From Chelativorans sp. AA-79 (lineage in GTDB: Bacteria; Pseudomonadota; Alphaproteobacteria; Rhizobiales; Rhizobiaceae), in NCBI RefSeq assembly GCF_029457495.1, contig NZ_CP120361.1, forward strand, positions 186,001 through 250,000: a DNA stretch of 64,000 nucleotides, written 5' to 3'. The notes beneath the pieces are model-generated. The model was not told the origin of the DNA and searched no databases. It worked only from the letters and a program-made list of their open reading frames with translations. The position numbers and the translations under genes are program-made. Of the stretch, positions 25,137 to 50,664 are shown piece after piece; position 1 is the first letter of the stretch; each line of letters starts with the position of its first letter.

Positions 25137-25783
25137 GGGCGCCACCGCAGGAAATTGGCGATCAGAGCCAGACCCAGCGCCTGGCTCTTTTCCGGGTGGA
25201 ACTGGGTGCCCGCGAGGTTGCCACAGGCGACGGCCGCAGTGACTTCGCCACCATAGTCGGTCACGGCCAGAACATCCTCGGGGCGCTTGGCGTCGAGGTG
25301 ATAGGAGTGGACGAAGTAGGCATGCAGCCCCTCCCGTCCCGTCGTGATCCCGGTGAAGAGCGGATGGGAATGTTTCACGTGAATCGTGTTCCACCCGATC
25401 TGCGGGACCTTGAGCGACGGGTCGTCGGGCGTGATCTCCTTCACGTCTCCTGCGATCCAGCCGAAGCCTTCAGTAATCGTCTTCTCAAGCCCCCGGTCCG
25501 ACATGAGCTGCATGCCGACACAGATGCCGAGAAAGGGCCTGGCATTCCCGATCGCGACCTCCTCGATGGCCTCGGTCATGCCCGGCACGGCATCAAGGCC
25601 GGCGCGGCAATCCGCATAGGCGCCGACACCGGGAAGCACGATGCGATCGGCCGTACGCACCCGGTCGGCATCGTCGGTAAGGTCGATTTCGGCAGCAATC
25701 CCCGTCTCGCGCGCCGCGCGTTCGAAAGCCTTTGTGGCGGAACGCAGATTGCCTGAGCCATAATCGATGATAGCGACACGCAT
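25133..25783 (-). CDS. hisH: Imidazole glycerol phosphate synthase glutaminase subunit HisH
   Basis: Class I glutamine amidotransferase giving ammonia to HisF. Catalytic residues are Cys88 (LGICVGMQL) and His196/Glu198 (GTQFHPEKS). Its 216 aa is normal. A ParB-site-like palindrome lies in the coding sequence (25371-25386). It starts three bases after the DUF2628 stop. Confidence 0.95.
25371..25386. promoter_or_regulatory. parS-like palindrome inside hisH
   Basis: tgtttcacgtgaatcg agrees with the parS consensus TGTTTCACGTGAAACA at 14 of 16 positions. It lies 13 kb from the putative origin on the side opposite to the main parS cluster. It could be a weak ParB site or chance, since hisH coding constraints apply. 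Confidence 0.3.
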
Positions 25784-37511: not shown

Positions 37512-38330
37512 TCACCAGGGCTTGCCGCGCAGGGCCAATATGGCCGCCGCGGTTTCCTCGATGGAGCGGCGCGTGACATCGATCACGGGCCAATTGTATC
37601 GTGCGCAAAGCTGGCGTGCATAGGCGAGTTCCCGGGCAATGGCCACACGATCGACATAAGCATCGAAGTCCACGCTGATCGTGCCGAGAAGCCGGTTCTG
37701 CCGAACCTGGGAAATGCGCTCGGCGGAAGCGATAAGGCCAACGACCAACGGATGCGTTGCCTTCAACATCGGCTCCGGCAACGGCACGTCGAGAACGATG
37801 GGCACATTCGCAGTCTTGATGCCACGATTTGCCAGATAGATGCTGGTCGGCGTCTTCGATGTGCGGGATACGCCGACAAGGATGATGTCGGCCTCATCCA
37901 CATCCTGCGGAAGTTGGCCGTCATCGTGTTCCATGGTGAAATTCAACGCATCGATGCGGCGAAAATATTCGGCATCCAAGACGTGCTGGGCGCCAACCCG
38001 GCGACCTGCGGGTGTGCCCAGATAGGACTGGAACACCGTGAGGACAGGCTCTAGGACGGAGACGCTTGGCAAACCCATGGATTGGCAGCGCTCGTCCACT
38101 TCGCGAGCAAGCTTTTGATCAACAATCGTGTAAAGCACGATCCCCGGTTCTTCATCGATTTCGGCGAAGACCTTGTCGAGCTGCTTTTCCGTGCGCACCA
38201 ACGGGTAAATGTGCTCGATGGCACGCGCATTCTTGTATTGCGCGGCAGCCGCTCTTCCGGCCGCGAGCAACGTTTCGCCCGTGGCATCTGAAATCAGGTG
38301 GAGATGAAAGAAGCTCTGGGGCTTTTGCAC
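37512..38330 (-). CDS. ppsR: Kinase/pyrophosphorylase of the PPSR (DUF299) family
   Basis: Members regulate PEP synthase or pyruvate phosphate dikinase by ADP-dependent phosphorylation and Pi-dependent dephosphorylation. The 272-aa sequence has [14 protein letters not shown] near the start, [12 protein letters not shown] (P-loop-like) and LDVPLPEP. The GTG at 38330 gives the normal length; other frames open back to 38777 across the origin region and are not credible. This gene and hemE flank oriC in Caulobacter and Rickettsia, which supports the oriC call. Confidence 0.88.
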
Positions 38331-38722
38331 AGGTTCCGATTCCACTCTGTGGAGAGATGTTGATAGCGCGGCGAAACACGCTTGGCGAATTTTCGGCTCT
38401 GGAAAAACCGGGTCGTGATCCACACCCATCGGGAATGGCGCAATGCATCGCGGGGTGTGCAGAACTATGTTGATGATGGACCATGTCCACATGTCGATGC
38501 CGGGATCTGCTTCTCTCTGCATGAGAAAAGGTATTGAAAATGCGGGATTTTTTTGACCTCTGTCGCAATTTTCCACATTGTACGGATATAAGGCGCGGCA
38601 ATTTGCTCGGGCGCCGGGAATGCCTTCCGGTGGACAGGATTTAATCCACGTTCCAAACAGAGTCATAGAATCAGAAACCTTTTTTATAGAATCTTTATTT
38701 TTTGAATCCGGAGACCTGAAAC
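38323..38722. other. oriC: Putative chromosomal replication origin (oriC) between ppsR and hemE
   Basis: The gap has seven DnaA-box-like 9-mers. Two match TTWTNCACA fully: TTTTGCACA at 38323 and TTTTCCACA at 38569. TGATCCACA (38416) differs from TTATCCACA at one base, TTCTGCACA (minus, 38456) is also close, and three weaker ones lie at 38348 (minus), 38483 and 38642. An AT-rich tract (38679-38703) and five GANTC sites (38338, 38660, 38668, 38689, 38704) are present, four of them within 49 bases. The flanking genes match the known alphaproteobacterial origin context. The limits and use are inferred. Confidence 0.7.
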
Positions 38723-39763
38723 GTGGCGGAACGGAAGCTTTTGGAAGTGCTGAAGGGGCGGACAGCCTTTCCGCCACCCGTCTGGCTGATGCGCCAAGCG
38801 GGACGGTATTTGCCCGAATATCGGGAAGCGCGCCGGAAAGCCGGAAGTTTCCTGGATCTTTGCTACAATCCAGATTTCGCGGTCGAGGTGACGCTGCAGC
38901 CGATCCGTCGCTTCGGTTTTGATGCCGCCATTCTTTTTTCCGACATCCTCGTCGTGCCCCATGCGCTGGGCCGCGACTTGCGCTTCGAGGAAGGGCTCGG
39001 ACCGCTTATGACGCCAATCGGGGCGGAGGAAGCCGTGGCTCTGAGCATGGATGGTTTTCACGAACATCTGAAGCCGGTATACGAGACCGTGCGGCGGCTA
39101 CGGCAGGAATTGCCGGAAGAAGCCGCGTTGATCGGCTTCTGTGGCGCTCCCTGGACAGTTGCCACCTACATGATCGCCGGGCGCGGAACCGCGGACCAGG
39201 CGCCCGCGCGTCTGTTCAGCTACAGGCATCCCGAAGCGCTTTCCCGTCTCCTCGATGACATTGCCGCAGCTTCTGCGGATTATCTCATCCGGCAGATCGA
39301 CGAAGGAGCTGATGCGGTGCAGATCTTTGATTCCTGGGCCGGCGTGTTGGATGAGAAGAGCTTCGATCGCTGGTGCATACGGCCCGTAGCGGAAATCGTG
39401 CGGCGAGTACGGCAGAAGCATCCCACCACTCCCATCATCGGGTTTCCGAAGGGAGCGGGATGGCTCTATCGCCGCTATCGCCGCGAAACCGGTGTGAAGG
39501 GGCTCGGGCTCGATTGGACGGTGCCGCTCGATGAAGCGGGCCGGCTGCAAATGGAAGGTGCCGTGCAGGGCAATTTGGACCCCATGCGGCTCGTCGCCGG
39601 CGGCAAAGCTCTCTCGGAGGGCGTCAAGTCGATCATGTCGGCACTGAGCGGCGGCCCGTTCATTTTCAATCTCGGCCACGGCATCACACCTGAGACACCC
39701 GTTGAGCATGTACAGGCGATGATCAACCAGGTGCGGGAGGAACAATCATGGCAACCGACGTAA
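38723..39763 (+). CDS. hemE: Uroporphyrinogen decarboxylase
   Basis: Decarboxylates uroporphyrinogen III to coproporphyrinogen III in heme synthesis. The 346-aa sequence has the family signature [16 protein letters not shown], and the second motif [13 protein letters not shown]. The GTG at 38723 is the start, following ggag. In Caulobacter the hemE promoter overlaps the origin, and here too hemE is immediately next to the AT-rich tract. The stop overlaps the start of hemJ by 16 bases. Confidence 0.95.
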
Positions 39764-41786: not shown

Positions 41787-42836
41787 TAGAGCCTTTCAGG
41801 TTTTGACGGAAGCGTATCCTGCATTGACGAAGTAGTTGCTGCATTCACTGGGCTGGATTAAGGAGACGAGGCCGCCGATGTGCCGCCATGTCTCCTCGAT
41901 GGTCCGCTTCTGAGCCGCGCGCATCCAATGCTTGATCTTGGCGAAGGCCTGCTCGATCGGATTGAGGTCGGGCGAGTATGGGGGCAGATACCAGAGCCTT
42001 GCGCCGGCGGCTTTGATCATCTGCCGGACGGCGGCCGACTTGTGTGAGCCGAGATTGTCCATGACGACGATGTCGCCCGGTTCAAGCACCGGCACGAGCT
42101 GCTGCTCGACATAGGCGCGGAAGCACTGGCCGTTGATCGGTCCATCGAAGACGCAAGGCGCCGTCAGCCGGTCATGGCGCAAAGCGCCGAGGAAGGTCAG
42201 CGTGCGCCAGTGGCCGTGCGGGGCAAAGCCGCGCAGGCGCTTGCCGCGTGGTCCCCAGCCCCGCAGCGGCGCCATGTTGGTCTTGATCCAGGTCTCGTCG
42301 ATGAACACCAGCCGTGTCGGATCGAGACCGGACTGCCAAGAACGCCAGCGTTGCCGCCGGCGGGCGATGTCGGCACGAGCCTGCTCAAGGGCGAACAGCG
42401 TTTTTTGAACCGAAGCCCCTCGCGGCGCAGGAACCGCCACACCGTATCGTGCGACACCTTCACGCCGCGCGCCGCCAGCTCTTCCTTCAGCTTGTGCAGC
42501 GACAGATGCGGCGTCTGGCTGATCCGCTCGGCGATGAAGGCACGGTGCGGCTCCAGCACGCGCTTGCGGTGCCCGCCCATCTTGCCCGGCGCCACAGACC
42601 CGCTCGCACGGTAGCGCTGAGACCACTTCACCGCCGACGAGACGGCAACGCCGAAACGAGCCGCCACCGACCGGCAGCTCTCGCCGGCCTCGACCGCCCC
42701 AACAACACGTTCACGCAGATCATTCGAAAGAGGTCGCGTCATCCCATGCTGGCCTCCACTCCAGCCAGCATCTTGAATCACAAAACCTCCGAAATCGGAA
42801 TCCCCCTTCGATTCAGACACAACCGGAACCGCTCTA
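41787..42836 (-). mobile_element. IS630-family insertion sequence (about 1.05 kb with TA target)
   Basis: A TA dinucleotide at each end (41787-41788 and 42835-42836) fits the TA target duplication of IS630/Tc1-mariner elements. Imperfect terminal repeats read tagagcctttcaggttttg at the left and tagagcggttccggttgtg (complement strand) at the right, 15 of 19 positions equal. The transposase gene fills the element on the minus strand. It is inserted between rho and a DUF255 gene in an otherwise conserved near-origin block. Full-length, so potentially active. Confidence 0.85.
41796..42742 (-). CDS. IS630-family transposase, two frames joined by a -1 frameshift
   Basis: Frame one starts at the ATG 42742 ([17 protein letters not shown]) with a helix-turn-helix domain. 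Frame two ends at 41796 and carries the DDE motif: Asp in VFIDETW, Asp in VVMDNLGSH and Glu in [11 protein letters not shown]. The frames meet at a run of six A on the coding strand (T at 42401-42406): read as AAA-AAA, a -1 slip continues as KKTLFALEQ. Programmed slippage is usual in IS630 elements; the join would give about 315 aa. A sequencing error or decay at the A-run is the alternative. Confidence 0.82.
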
Positions 42837-44941: not shown

Positions 44942-46270
44942 GTGCCCAATCAAATACCAGTCCGCGATACGATTTTCGCGCTATCAAGCGGTGCCCTGCC
45001 TTCGGGCGTGGCCGTGATCCGAATATCCGGTCCTGCGACCAGGAACGTGTTAGAGCGGGTGGCCGGCAGTGCTCCCAAGGCCAGGTACGCTCGATTGACC
45101 GAGATCCGCGATTCGGGCGGAGCCATCCTTGACCAGGGCTTGGTTTTATATTTCCCGGGTCCTGCCAGTTTCACCGGTGAGGATTGTGCAGAACTCCATC
45201 TGCATGGCGGGAGGGCTGTGGTGGCCGCTGTGCTGAACCTGTTGGGCAGCCTGCGGTCCCTTCGGCAAGCAGAAGCCGGAGAGTTTACAAAGCGTGCCTT
45301 TCTCAACGGGAAGGTGGATTTAACCGGCGCGGAAGCTCTCTCCGATCTCATAGGGGCCGAAACAGAGGCTCAACGCCGTTTTGCGTTGTCCAACGGCAGC
45401 GGGGCGCACCGGCGACTCTATATGGATTGGCGGCAGCGGCTTATACGCGCCAGGGCAATGATCGAGGCAGAACTCGACTTTGCCGACGAAGCCGATGTCC
45501 CAGGATCCGTTGGTGACACGGTTTGGGGTGATATCCACCTTCTCCGGGGGGAACTGGCGGAACATAAGGCGACCTACCGCACTGCAGAGATCATTCGAAA
45601 GGGCCTTGTGGTCGTCATTCTCGGCGCGCCGAACGCCGGTAAGTCAAGCCTTCTCAATGCGCTGGCCCGCCGGGAGGTAGCGATCGTGACGGAGGAGCCA
45701 GGGACCACCCGTGACATTCTAGAGGTGAGTCTCGACCTGCACGGGATGAAAGTGATTCTCGCGGACACCGCCGGCATAAGGGAGGCGAGCGGTCGAATCG
45801 AGGCGATTGGCATTGAGCGAACATTTGAGCGAGCACGAGATGCAGATCTCCTTCTGCTTCTGGAGGACATCACGTCTCCAGCCGAATTTGGCGGGATTCC
45901 GGATAAGCTCGCCCTCCGGGTAGGCAATAAAATGGATTTGGCCGGAACATGGGATGAGAAGCGCTATGACTGCGTGATATCGGCAAAGACGGGTGATGGC
46001 CTCGACGGACTTGTCGGCCTTCTCCGCAGCGTGAGCACCGGATACCATAGCCAGGCGGGCGAGACCCTGCCTTTCCGCGCTCGGCACGTCGTTCTTCTAC
46101 AGGAGGCGATCGAAGCCTTGGATGAGGCAATCGCGGGCGAAGCGGCCGGGCTTGAATTGCGTGCAGAACATCTGCGCTTGGCAGGCGATGCGCTTGGACG
46201 CATTTTCGGCGAGATCGGGACCGAGGATCTGCTGGACACGATCTTTTCAACCTTTTGCATCGGCAAATGA
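44942..46270 (+). CDS. mnmE: tRNA modification GTPase MnmE (TrmE)
   Basis: Works with MnmG to add the 5-carboxymethylaminomethyl group at U34 of certain tRNAs. The 442-aa protein has the N-terminal folate domain, the G domain with GAPNAGKSSLLNAL (P-loop) and DTAGIREASG, and ends CIGK, with the catalytic Cys. The start is the GTG at 44942. The stop codon forms part of the first parS-like site. Confidence 0.95.
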   Translation: MPNQIPVRDTIFALSSGALPSGVAVIRISGPATRNVLERVAGSAPKARYARLTEIRDSGGAILDQGLVLYFPGPASFTGEDCAELHLHGGRAVVAAVLNLLGSLRSLRQAEAGEFTKRAFLNGKVDLTGAEALSDLIGAETEAQRRFALSNGSGAHRRLYMDWRQRLIRARAMIEAELDFADEADVPGSVGDTVWGDIHLLRGELAEHKATYRTAEIIRKGLVVVILGAPNAGKSSLLNALARREVAIVTEEPGTTRDILEVSLDLHGMKVILADTAGIREASGRIEAIGIERTFERARDADLLLLLEDITSPAEFGGIPDKLALRVGNKMDLAGTWDEKRYDCVISAKTGDGLDGLVGLLRSVSTGYHSQAGETLPFRARHVVLLQEAIEALDEAIAGEAAGLELRAEHLRLAGDALGRIFGEIGTEDLLDTIFSTFCIGK

Positions 46271-46283
46271 TTCACGTGAAACA
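46268..46283. promoter_or_regulatory. parS: parS site 1
   Basis: tgattcacgtgaaaca agrees with the consensus TGTTTCACGTGAAACA at 15 of 16 positions. It overlaps the mnmE stop codon. It would be bound by the ParB encoded 3.5 kb downstream. Confidence 0.85.
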
Positions 46284-46304: not shown

Positions 46305-46320
46305 CGATTCACGTGAAACA
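46305..46320. promoter_or_regulatory. parS: parS site 2
   Basis: cgattcacgtgaaaca, 14 of 16 positions as the consensus, 37 bp from site 1, in the mnmE-mnmG gap. Confidence 0.8.
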
Positions 46321-46352: not shown

Positions 46353-46368
46353 AGTTTCACGTGAAACA
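46353..46368. promoter_or_regulatory. parS: parS site 3
   Basis: agtttcacgtgaaaca, 15 of 16 positions, in the mnmE-mnmG gap, 61 bp before the mnmG start. Confidence 0.85.
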
Positions 46369-48298: not shown

Positions 48299-48927
48299 CC
48301 GGCGGACGGTTTCTTGCCTTAGAGAAGGTTGCCGGATCCGTTTCACGTGAAACATTCGAGCGCATCGAGTGCTTCGAGGCAGCATTCGTCAGGTGGTCGG
48401 CGCGGATCAATCTTGCGGCTCCCTCAAGTCTTCCGCATCTATGGGAACGGCACATCCTGGATAGCGCACAACTGCCACGGCTGGCTCCCAACGCGAGGTA
48501 TTGGCTGGATCTTGGCTCCGGCGGGGGCTTTCCGGGCGCTATCGTGGCGATCATGATCGCCGGTCGAGAAGGAGGGCATGTCGATCTGATCGAGAGCAAC
48601 CGAAAAAAGGCAGCCTTTCTTCAGACTGTTTTGGCTTCGCTCGATGCGCCAGCCTCCGTCCATGCGCGGCGAGTCGAGAAGTGTTTCGGGCATCTCGAGA
48701 CGCCGGACATCATCACGGCACGCGCGCTGGCGCCGCTGCCCGTTTTGCTGGAACTCGCAGCTTCTTGGATGAGCGAAGGAGCAAGAGCGTTGTTTCATAA
48801 AGGCCGGGATTATCGACGTGAGGTGGAAGAAAGCCGTGACGCCTGGGGATTCGATCTGATAGAACATCGCAACAAGGTTGGAGGGGACGGCGTGATTCTG
48901 GATATAAGCAATCTTCGCCGCCTCTAG
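48295..48927 (+). CDS. rsmG: 16S rRNA (guanine-N7)-methyltransferase RsmG (GidB)
   Basis: Methylates G527 of 16S rRNA with SAM. The 210-aa protein has the SAM motif [11 protein letters not shown] near residues 65-75 and a family-typical C-terminus. The ATG overlaps the mnmG stop. The fourth parS-like site lies within codons 15-20 (encoding SVSRET), so part of the palindrome is also coding. Confidence 0.94.
48339..48354. promoter_or_regulatory. parS: parS site 4, inside rsmG
   Basis: cgtttcacgtgaaaca, 15 of 16 positions as the consensus; located in the 5' part of rsmG, about 630 bp before parA. Confidence 0.8.
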
Positions 48928-48966: not shown

Positions 48967-49761
48967 ATGAGCAAGCCTTCACGCATTATCACCGTCGCAA
49001 ATCAGAAAGGCGGGGTCGGGAAAACCACCACTGCCATCAACCTTGCCACGGCGCTGGCCGCGATCGGTGAACGTGTTCTGATTGTGGATCTCGATCCGCA
49101 GGGAAATGCAAGCACCGGATTGGGTATAGATAGACCGGCGCGGCATGTTTCATCCTATGACGTTCTCACCGGCGCATCGGATATCGATGGGGCGGCAATG
49201 GAAACCGCCGTTCCCGGATTGGCGATTGTTCCTTCTACGCTCGACCTGCTCGGTATCGAGATGGAAATCTCCACTTCCGCCGATCGAGTTCTCAAGCTGC
49301 GCAATGCCTTGCGGCAAGCGCCTTCGAAAAAGGGATTCTCCTACGTCCTGATCGATTGTCCGCCGTCTCTCAACCTGTTGACACTTAACGCCATGGCTGC
49401 CGCGGACTCGGTGCTCGTCCCTCTCCAGTGTGAGTTCTTCGCGCTCGAAGGGCTGAGCCAGCTTCTTGAGACGGTGGAACAAATTCGTGGTTCCATCAAT
49501 CCCTCGTTAACCATACAGGGCATCGTGCTAACGATGTTCGATCGACGTAACAATCTGGCGAATCAGGTGGTGGAGGACGTGCGCGCTCATATGGGGGAAA
49601 CGGTCTATGAGACCGTTATCCCGCGCAATGTTCGCGTTTCGGAGGCGCCATCCTATGGAAAGCCGGCGATCCTCTATGATTTGAAGTGCTCCGGCAGCCA
49701 GGCATACTTGCAGCTTGCTTCCGAGGTCATCCGCAGAGAACGGCGCCTTCGCGCGGCTTGA
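48967..49761 (+). CDS. parA: Chromosome partitioning ATPase ParA
   Basis: Deviant Walker-type ATPase that moves ParB-parS complexes to the pole. The 264-aa protein begins ITVANQKGGVGKTTTAINLA and has LIVDLDPQGNAS and YVLIDCPPSLNLLT, the normal chromosomal (Soj-type) form without an N-terminal regulatory domain. It starts 39 bp after rsmG and is followed by parB after 36 bp. Confidence 0.96.
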   Translation: MSKPSRIITVANQKGGVGKTTTAINLATALAAIGERVLIVDLDPQGNASTGLGIDRPARHVSSYDVLTGASDIDGAAMETAVPGLAIVPSTLDLLGIEMEISTSADRVLKLRNALRQAPSKKGFSYVLIDCPPSLNLLTLNAMAAADSVLVPLQCEFFALEGLSQLLETVEQIRGSINPSLTIQGIVLTMFDRRNNLANQVVEDVRAHMGETVYETVIPRNVRVSEAPSYGKPAILYDLKCSGSQAYLQLASEVIRRERRLRAA

Positions 49762-49797: not shown

Positions 49798-50664
49798 ATG
49801 AATGAAGACCCCTCGCGTAAACGCCTCGGCCGCGGCCTTGCTGCCCTTATTGGCGAAGTCGACAAGCCCACAACCCGCGAGGAGGAGACCGTTCGTGCCG
49901 ATCGGAGCATACCGATCGAATTCGTTTCGCCGAACCCGCGCAATCCTCGACGCAATTTTGCCGAAACGGACCTCATCGAGCTCTCGCAATCCATTCGCGA
50001 GCATGGGATTGTGCAGCCCGTGGTTGTGCGGCCGGCCGCCGCAACAGGGCGATACGAAATCATTGCCGGCGAACGTCGATGGCGCGCTGCTCAGCGGGCG
50101 GGCCTCACAGAGATCCCGGTTATTATCCGTGACGTCGATGACAAGGCGGCGTTGGAACTCGCCATCATCGAAAATGTTCAGCGAGCAGATCTCAATTCGA
50201 TCGAAGAAGCACGTGGTTATCAGCAGCTCATGGATGAGCATAATTATACCCAGGCCGACCTAGCGCAAGTGATCGGCAAAAGCCGAAGTCACGTTGCAAA
50301 CACTCTGCGGCTGCTGAAGCTTCCCGAATCCGTGGCGGAGTTCATCATCGACGGTTCCCTGACAGCGGGCCATGCGCGGACCCTTGTGACTGCCGTCGAT
50401 CCGGCAGGGCTTGCGAAGCGCATTATCGACGAGGGGCTGTCAGTTCGCCAAGCCGAAGCACTGGCCGGCGCTCAAGATGAGGAGCCATCACGGGCCAAGG
50501 AGCGAAAGGAAAAAGACGCCGATACCATTTCGCTCGAGAAACTTCTTAGTGATCACACTGGGTTGAAGGTTTCGATCAATCATAAGGAAAAGGGCGGTGA
50601 GATGCGCATTTCCTATCGCTCGCTCGAGCAGTTGGACGAATTGTGCCGCCTGTTACAGCGCTAG
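49798..50664 (+). CDS. parB: Chromosome partitioning protein ParB
   Basis: CTP-dependent DNA clamp that loads at parS and spreads. The 288-aa protein has an N-terminal ParA-contact stretch (KRLGRGLAALIG), the CTPase motif GERRWRAAQRAG, then ENVQRADLNSIEEA and an HTH region (YTQADLAQVIGKSRSHVANTLRLL) for parS binding, and the C-terminal dimerisation domain. It is followed by 100 bp without features and a convergent gene. Confidence 0.96.
   Translation: MNEDPSRKRLGRGLAALIGEVDKPTTREEETVRADRSIPIEFVSPNPRNPRRNFAETDLIELSQSIREHGIVQPVVVRPAAATGRYEIIAGERRWRAAQRAGLTEIPVIIRDVDDKAALELAIIENVQRADLNSIEEARGYQQLMDEHNYTQADLAQVIGKSRSHVANTLRLLKLPESVAEFIIDGSLTAGHARTLVTAVDPAGLAKRIIDEGLSVRQAEALAGAQDEEPSRAKERKEKDADTISLEKLLSDHTGLKVSINHKEKGGEMRISYRSLEQLDELCRLLQR

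Follow-up and report, generated by a model that had tools for sequence, protein, structure and literature searches.

The gap between ppsR and hemE of Chelativorans sp. AA-79 raises two questions: whether the chromosome begins its replication here, and what the GANTC sites crowded at the hemE end of the gap contribute. We analyzed a 64-kb stretch of DNA (G000 C1:186001-250000; hereafter, the window) of a 5.76-Mb genome, in which the chromosome, C1, has 5,306,519 bases and C2 and C3 have approximately 0.2 Mb. Chromosome-wide scans covered 1.61 Mb of the 5.31-Mb chromosome. The ppsR-hemE gap is very probably the chromosomal oriC, one of the hemE-COG1806 type that Caulobacter also has, and the best explanation of the whole, a DnaA-dependent origin of the 5.3-Mb chromosome that carries a conserved core, is considered likely. 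The new part is that, as judged by comparing sequences, the GANTC cluster belongs to a conserved 20-base core in the origin, common to most of the family. The features of the locus are listed in Table 1.

Gene setting and DnaA boxes of the putative origin

The two border genes diverge around the intergenic gap (Pfam PF03618 and PF01208), and a divergent ppsR was present at 98 of the 110 hemE loci compared, which comprised the locus itself, 29 relatives, and 80 named records, some of them near-identical. The closest named loci were those of Nitratireductor, Mesorhizobium, and their kin, at no more than 74% identity (very near records may be omitted). The original prediction relied on the order PPSR-origin-hemE. 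Divergent border genes were indeed found, as reported for Caulobacter and Rickettsia, the origins of which are bordered by hemE and COG1806 in the available part of PMC1914354; DnaA boxes and an AT-rich tract are further likenesses to C. crescentus Cori and the Rickettsia origin. An IS630-like transposase in two overlapping frames (translation judged by eye) lies at 41796-42820 of the window on the minus strand, between rho and the next gene.

Seven DnaA-box-like 9-mers had been predicted, two of them full matches to TTWTNCACA. Both full matches (38323 and 38569) were recovered and are the only ones in 64 kb; however, five boxes, not seven, were found at one mismatch or fewer, and ten in the region when two mismatches to TTATCCACA were allowed. 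The five lie within 392 bases, the maximum of the 1.61 Mb scanned, in which places outside the region reach three. The single TGATCCACA box (38416), which we take to be the Caulobacter G-box, is shared with C. crescentus Cori. The AATCC of the weak box TAATCCACG (38642) is common in relatives. The sequence GTGGACAG (38630-38637), which precedes the core, is the complement of the DnaA-box-like CTGTCCAC; in relatives, it lies at approximately -30 to -23 from GANTC 1, and GG at -28/-27 is well conserved.

The AT-rich tract predicted to adjoin hemE was confirmed: at the hemE end of the gap, only one 60-mer of the window is less stable than the one starting at 38650, which has -68.1 kcal/mol against a median of -91.9 kcal/mol (nearest-neighbour values). 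From this anatomy, we infer that DnaA would load on the clustered boxes (38323-38577) together with the weak one at 38642 and then open the unstable tract (38650-38709). Unlike C. crescentus Cori, the ppsR-hemE origin has no CtrA or IHF site at one mismatch or fewer, CtrA sites appearing only at two mismatches. Since B. abortus CtrA did not bind the B. abortus origin in the accessible text of PMC2877005, we did not take these sites as origin-defining in Rhizobiaceae.

A partition locus accompanies the origin. The 1.61 Mb scanned yielded five parS-like sites with two mismatches or fewer, every one of them in the window, against 0.10 expected. parA and parB are located 10-12 kb from the origin, and four of the parS-like sites lie 7.5-9.7 kb rightward and one 13 kb leftward.

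Table 1. Features of the ppsR-hemE locus and its surroundings (positions in the window)
Feature	Position	Strand	Remark
ppsR / COG1806 (Kinase-PPPase), left origin border	37512..38345	-	GTG start 38345; Pfam PF03618, E 3e-89
oriC region between ppsR and hemE (very probable)	38323..38722		Densest DnaA-box cluster in 1.61 Mb scanned; overlaps first ppsR codons
DnaA box TTTTGCACA	38323..38331	+	Full match to TTWTNCACA
DnaA-box-like TTTTCCAGA	38398..38406	-	One mismatch
DnaA box TGATCCACA	38416..38424	+	Presumed Caulobacter G-box form
DnaA-box-like TTCTGCACA	38456..38464	-	One mismatch
DnaA box TTTTCCACA	38569..38577	+	Full match to TTWTNCACA
Weak DnaA-box-like TAATCCACG	38642..38650	+	Two mismatches; directly before core
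Putative unwinding element	38650..38709		Second least stable 60-mer of window
Conserved origin core ACAGAGTCATAGAATCAGAA	38657..38676	+	One exact copy in 5.76-Mb genome
GANTC 1 (GAGTC)	38660..38664		Intact in 91/91 distinct core windows; L103, without GANTC 1, left out
GANTC 2 (GAATC), +8 from GANTC 1	38668..38672		Intact in 63/91
GANTC 3 (GAATC), AT-rich tract	38689..38693		Position +29 rare in relatives
GANTC 4 (GAATC), AT-rich tract	38704..38708		Position +44 rare in relatives
hemE, right origin border	38723..39763	+	Pfam PF01208, E 3e-113
parS-like site	25371..25386		Two mismatches
parS-like site	46268..46283		One mismatch
parS-like site	46305..46320		Two mismatches
parS-like site	46353..46368		One mismatch
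parS-like site, inside rsmG start	48339..48354		One mismatch
parA	48967..49761	+	Pfam AAA_31
parB	49798..50664	+	Pfam ParB_N, HTH_ParB, ParB_C

Strand composition and the region of dnaA

The dnaA gene is located at C1:406, approximately 224 kb from hemE. The skew minimum, named in the original prediction as a check on oriC, points to approximately -20 kb near dnaA, approximately 245 kb from the ppsR-hemE gap, and did not bear the prediction out. The chromosomal origin might instead lie near dnaA (C1 position 1), with the hemE region as an old, now inactive or secondary origin. The codon and k-mer scores, which put the strand switch at approximately -12 to -25 kb, speak for this alternative: the codon score at four-fold sites is lowest at -12 kb and has a second minimum near 150 kb, and a classifier based on 6-mers (81% correct when cross-validated on 98 arm pieces) places the switch at approximately -20 to -25 kb. 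So does the right-arm bias from -25 to 225 kb, at approximately half of the arm strength (0.19 vs 0.35), and one full DnaA box and one near match are present within 1 kb before C1 position 1. However, the box cluster is absent near dnaA in the 1.61 Mb scanned, no parS-like site is present there (including the 1 kb before C1 position 1), all of them being by hemE, and the conserved core is intact at hemE. Furthermore, on either side of the ambiguous stretch (-180 to -25 kb and 225 to 600 kb, taken jointly), strand bias amounts to only 11% of the arm value. The orientation of GGGNAGGG flips at approximately 2.79-2.83 Mb, and its antipode at 0.14-0.18 Mb, if equal arms are assumed, is nearer hemE than dnaA. 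We consider an origin near dnaA to be very improbable.

GC skew by stretch was small and of mixed sign over several hundred kb around dnaA and hemE. When a switch was simulated at hemE, it was misplaced this far in 1 of 4,000 runs at full arm strength, in 2% of runs at 50% strength, and in 9% at 30%. Because the flanking strand bias is only 11% of that of the arms, the skew result weakens an oriC at hemE without refuting it; we concluded that skew favors an origin in the region of dnaA, but not strongly enough to exclude hemE. GC skew is insufficient for locating the origin in several Alphaproteobacteria according to the available part of PMC1914354, and the strand switch was therefore taken as a supporting rather than a defining criterion. 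GC skew, codon skew, and k-mer scores were rejected as origin locators; they are weak near the origin, and their best switch is near dnaA. The predicted oriC at hemE retains in its favor the gene order, the DnaA boxes, the unstable tract, parA/parB/parS, and a family-wide core, and the switch elsewhere counts against it.

Two side observations concern this region and dnaA. The half-strength right-arm bias between -25 and 225 kb would be accounted for by an old inversion or displacement next to the origin. A second, weaker Bac_DnaA match (35 bits) is present at G000 C2:93728-94021, on the 236-kb C2, in an open frame of 395 aa.

A 20-base core at the hemE end of the gap

The core pattern ACNGANTCNNAGAANNANAA is exact in 113 of 151 family genomes, in 108 of which it occurs once, and is absent in its exact form in the other 38. 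Exact matches were found at 118 places in these 151 genomes, against 8 for the reversed control pattern. The own genome has the pattern once in exact form and at two more places with one mismatch. The motif was read in nearly all of the 110 loci as ACA or ACC, GASTC, two bases, AGAA, two bases, and A-N-A-A. Among 110 core sequences (103 before hemE and 7 beside ppsR), the best match was exact in 99, had one mismatch in 9, two in 1, and three in 1, the template having been drawn from these loci; seven further family loci that were previously unused gave four exact matches, one with one mismatch, one with two, and one without a match. All 30 exact-core places that were fetched have hemE within the 3-kb locus, and 25 have ppsR. 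In genomes with a known place of hemE, the pattern stands just before this gene in 17 of 18; in G016, the exact core is on a contig other than that of hemE. A record titled Bacillus subtilis strain SK6B4 (L176) has a Rhizobiaceae-type hemE-ppsR origin with the core, and its title or contig looks wrong.

Outside the family but within the order, 21 genomes (a truncated locus was excluded) gave no core at one mismatch or fewer; we count this restriction as a difference from the Caulobacter and Rickettsia origins. In the same 21 genomes, the last 120 bases before hemE contain 30 GANTC sites against a control-palindrome mean of 6.1 (maximum 11), and the sites are spread over 17 of the 21 loci. Since these families are without the core, yet GANTC-enriched before hemE, we regard the 20-base core as a Rhizobiaceae feature on a wider GANTC background. 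A description of it was not found in the open-licence literature searched, and one elsewhere is possible. Sibley in 2006 is said to have described the chromosomal oriC of S. meliloti beside hemE, a likeness to the present locus, and Shaheen in 2009 reportedly compared the Caulobacter origin. The core of the S. medicae locus L197 reads CACCGACTCTAAGAAATAGAA; this locus differs in that GANTC 2 is replaced by GAAAT and one GANTC is left within 100 bp of hemE.

The position of the core, 47-66 bases before hemE in this genome, would suit a hemE promoter read by GcrA and CcrM, both of which are encoded, and the original prediction had allowed for the GANTC cluster to time hemE transcription. Genomes in which hemE has left its place decide against this. 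We checked fifteen genomes for ppsR. In the eight without a match, the hemE loci match the core with two mismatches or fewer; the seven with a match are special. In G061 and G062 (L203 and L207), ppsR, the core, hemJ, and rho remain in this order, whereas the moved hemE (L142 and L159) is without the core. G063 and G064 have duplicated hemE, the core being present at the copy next to ppsR and absent from the other. In G065, G066, and G071, hemE is displaced, with its start 168-433 bases away from the core rather than 66, and the core-ppsR distance is kept. Reckoned from ppsR match ends and core positions, the distance between the start of ppsR and that of the core is 311-327 bases in these seven genomes (312 here), and DnaA boxes lie beside the core in each. 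The core does not travel with hemE; it keeps its place beside ppsR and the DnaA boxes in genomes with a moved, duplicated, or displaced hemE, which argues for an origin element rather than a hemE promoter. A promoter function of the core and its GANTC sites is improbable, and the predicted timing of hemE transcription is contradicted by the hemE copies that lack the core elsewhere. The core could drive whichever gene comes next.

CcrM sites of the core and their possible role

The four GANTC sites in 49 bases (38660-38708) were confirmed, with starts at 38660, 38668, 38689, and 38704; one more is present in the region at 38338. The expected rate of one per approximately 256 bases did not hold, since the window has 138 sites, or one per 464 bases. 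Elsewhere in the window, no four sites lie within fewer than 173 bases, and only one array in the 1.61 Mb scanned (C1:4.0129-4.0141 Mb) has tighter spacing than the origin. In that array (G000 C1:4012915-4014145), the sites are close and several start 18 bases apart. Four GANTC within 49 bases also occurred in 33 of 200 first-order Markov windows. The cluster alone is not extreme and could arise by chance in such a window; the case rests on the comparison among relatives.

The 100 bases before hemE contain 318 GANTC sites across the 110 loci against 23.2 expected from the flanks, with at least one in 104 of the 110. For site-by-site comparisons, 91 distinct core windows were obtained from 109 of the 110 sequences; L103 was dropped for its three mismatches and its lack of GANTC 1. 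In the 50-base core windows, 272 GANTC sites were counted (91 of them the anchor) against 0-85 for seven composition-matched palindromes. GANTC 1 is intact in 91 of 91 (the template holds this site but allowed two mismatches, none of which fell in it), with C in 67, G in 23, and T in 1 at N, and zero one-letter misses. At +17, 42 of the 91 windows have an intact site, with A in 16, T in 13, and C in 13 at N, and only two windows are one letter off. Since N varies while the four fixed letters stay, GANTC 1 and the +17 site appear to be kept as GANTC, which suggests that they are under selection as CcrM sites. GANTC 2 is kept in 63 of 91, in each case as GAATC, and 12 windows miss it by one letter; it may be conserved for another reason than methylation. 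The 28 windows without it have kept the AGAA run in nearly all cases, and the core is therefore not solely a methylation target. The comparative signal for the conservation of CcrM sites concerns GANTC 1 and the +17 site of relatives; that of the other sites is presumed.

The genome encodes CcrM (383 aa; best PDB match 6pbd CcrMI, E 1e-160) and GcrA. Loss of CcrM was rejected as the cause of core loss within the family: a CcrM match is present in 36 of the 38 genomes without the exact core, although in one of these it is partial and lies at the end of a contig, and the two without a match are drafts of 350 and 930 contigs. Class-wide comparisons used upstream DNA from 89 of 121 other genomes of the class with a hemE match, G080 and G165, with partial methylase matches only, being counted as CcrM-less. 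GANTC sites near hemE numbered 59 against 17.3 in the 63 CcrM-bearing genomes and 11 against 5.9 in the 26 CcrM-less genomes. At least two sites were present in 17 of 63 and 0 of 26, respectively (Fisher 0.002, kinship ignored), and in 13 of 53 and 0 of 10 among divergent-ppsR loci only (0.105); at least one was present in 39 of 63 and 11 of 26 (0.105). CcrM-less loci are more AT-rich than CcrM-bearing loci. This class-wide link of CcrM with GANTC near hemE is suggestive only.

A core of CcrM sites at the edge of the unwinding tract might let methylation state modulate initiation. The core sites are presumably methylated, and their state would have an effect: fully methylated before firing, the core would become hemimethylated as the fork passes and stay so until CcrM reappears toward the end of the cell cycle. 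We speculate, with reserve, that the methylation state of the unwinding region modulates initiation. It is an equally tentative proposal that the Rhizobiaceae origin carries a CcrM-read switch, usually in one copy, in which GANTC methylation gates opening by DnaA and the hemimethylated origin stays closed until CcrM returns. We know of no reader of hemimethylated GANTC. The suggestion of the original prediction that the GANTC cluster could time initiation fits with the selection on the sites, but not with the effects of CcrM loss. In A. tumefaciens, CcrM depletion delayed ori2 and not ori1, and CcrM over-expression likewise left ori1 unchanged (available part of PMC11514494). In Caulobacter, ccrM deletion gave a normal DNA-content profile; CcrM over-expression, which counts in favor of the proposed explanation, is reported to lead to extra chromosome copies (available part of PMC3973325). 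The methylation step is held at this tentative level because these published results on CcrM loss, as far as the accessible text goes, weigh against a strong switch.

The core may instead be a plain single-strand or unwinding motif of DnaA, with GANTC incidental to the favored sequence. It has an invariant A at +7, +10, +13, and +16 from GANTC 1, a three-base rhythm like that of DnaA-trios, which suggests DnaA contact with single-stranded DNA; the loss of GANTC 2 in 28 of 91 windows with AGAA kept points the same way, as does the tolerance of CcrM loss by A. tumefaciens and Caulobacter at a hemE-type origin (in the available parts of PMC11514494 and PMC3973325). However, the constancy of the fixed letters around a variable N in GANTC 1 and at +17, with 0 and 2 one-letter misses, and the rarity of the composition-matched palindromes count against an incidental GANTC, and we consider this explanation rather unlikely. 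A reading of the core as DnaA-trios, attractive for its rhythm, was set aside, since the polarity is opposite to the published arrangement of the BUS (DnaA-box, spacer, DnaA-trios) as read here from the accessible text of PMC8287927, PMC7561715, and PMC10721633. The invariant A over four core triplets is a likeness to the BUS, but, for boxes located on the ppsR side, the rhythm would be expected on the other strand. The published permissive rule (16 bases or fewer from the box) singles out neither polarity: the longest trio run here is 3 in the canonical and 4 in the opposite direction, and over 103 loci, mean runs of 2.67 and 3.12 compare with 1.35 and 1.23 for mononucleotide shuffles.

Known origins offer several parallels for the CcrM-site core. 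The unwinding element of E. coli oriC has Dam sites in its 13-mers. The present origin is similar in placing sites of an orphan adenine methylase in AT-rich DNA beside DnaA boxes, but has GANTC/CcrM for GATC/Dam, with spacings of 8 and 17 in relatives, and we know of no SeqA counterpart for a GANTC/CcrM origin. CcrM sites are also found in C. crescentus Cori, several GANTC being present in the Caulobacter origin according to the available part of PMC3973325. The repABC replicon origins are likewise GANTC-rich, with CcrM sites at or near the origin (accessible portions of PMC6090056 and PMC11514494); however, they are RepC origins, whereas the Chelativorans origin has DnaA boxes beside ppsR and hemE.

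Being exact in 113 of 151 family genomes, and single in 108, the core is usable as a marker of oriC. A practical one, it can help to place the origin in draft genomes or, as in Chelativorans sp. AA-79, in chromosomes with weak skew. CcrM is seemingly essential in other Alphaproteobacteria, but not in Caulobacter, according to the available part of a review (PMC6090056). An origin core with GANTC-like conservation is a precise target for this question of essentiality, as the GANTC can be broken apart from the rest. If the methylation switch is true, it would be an alphaproteobacterial counterpart of Dam/SeqA control that uses another enzyme and is specific to Rhizobiaceae.
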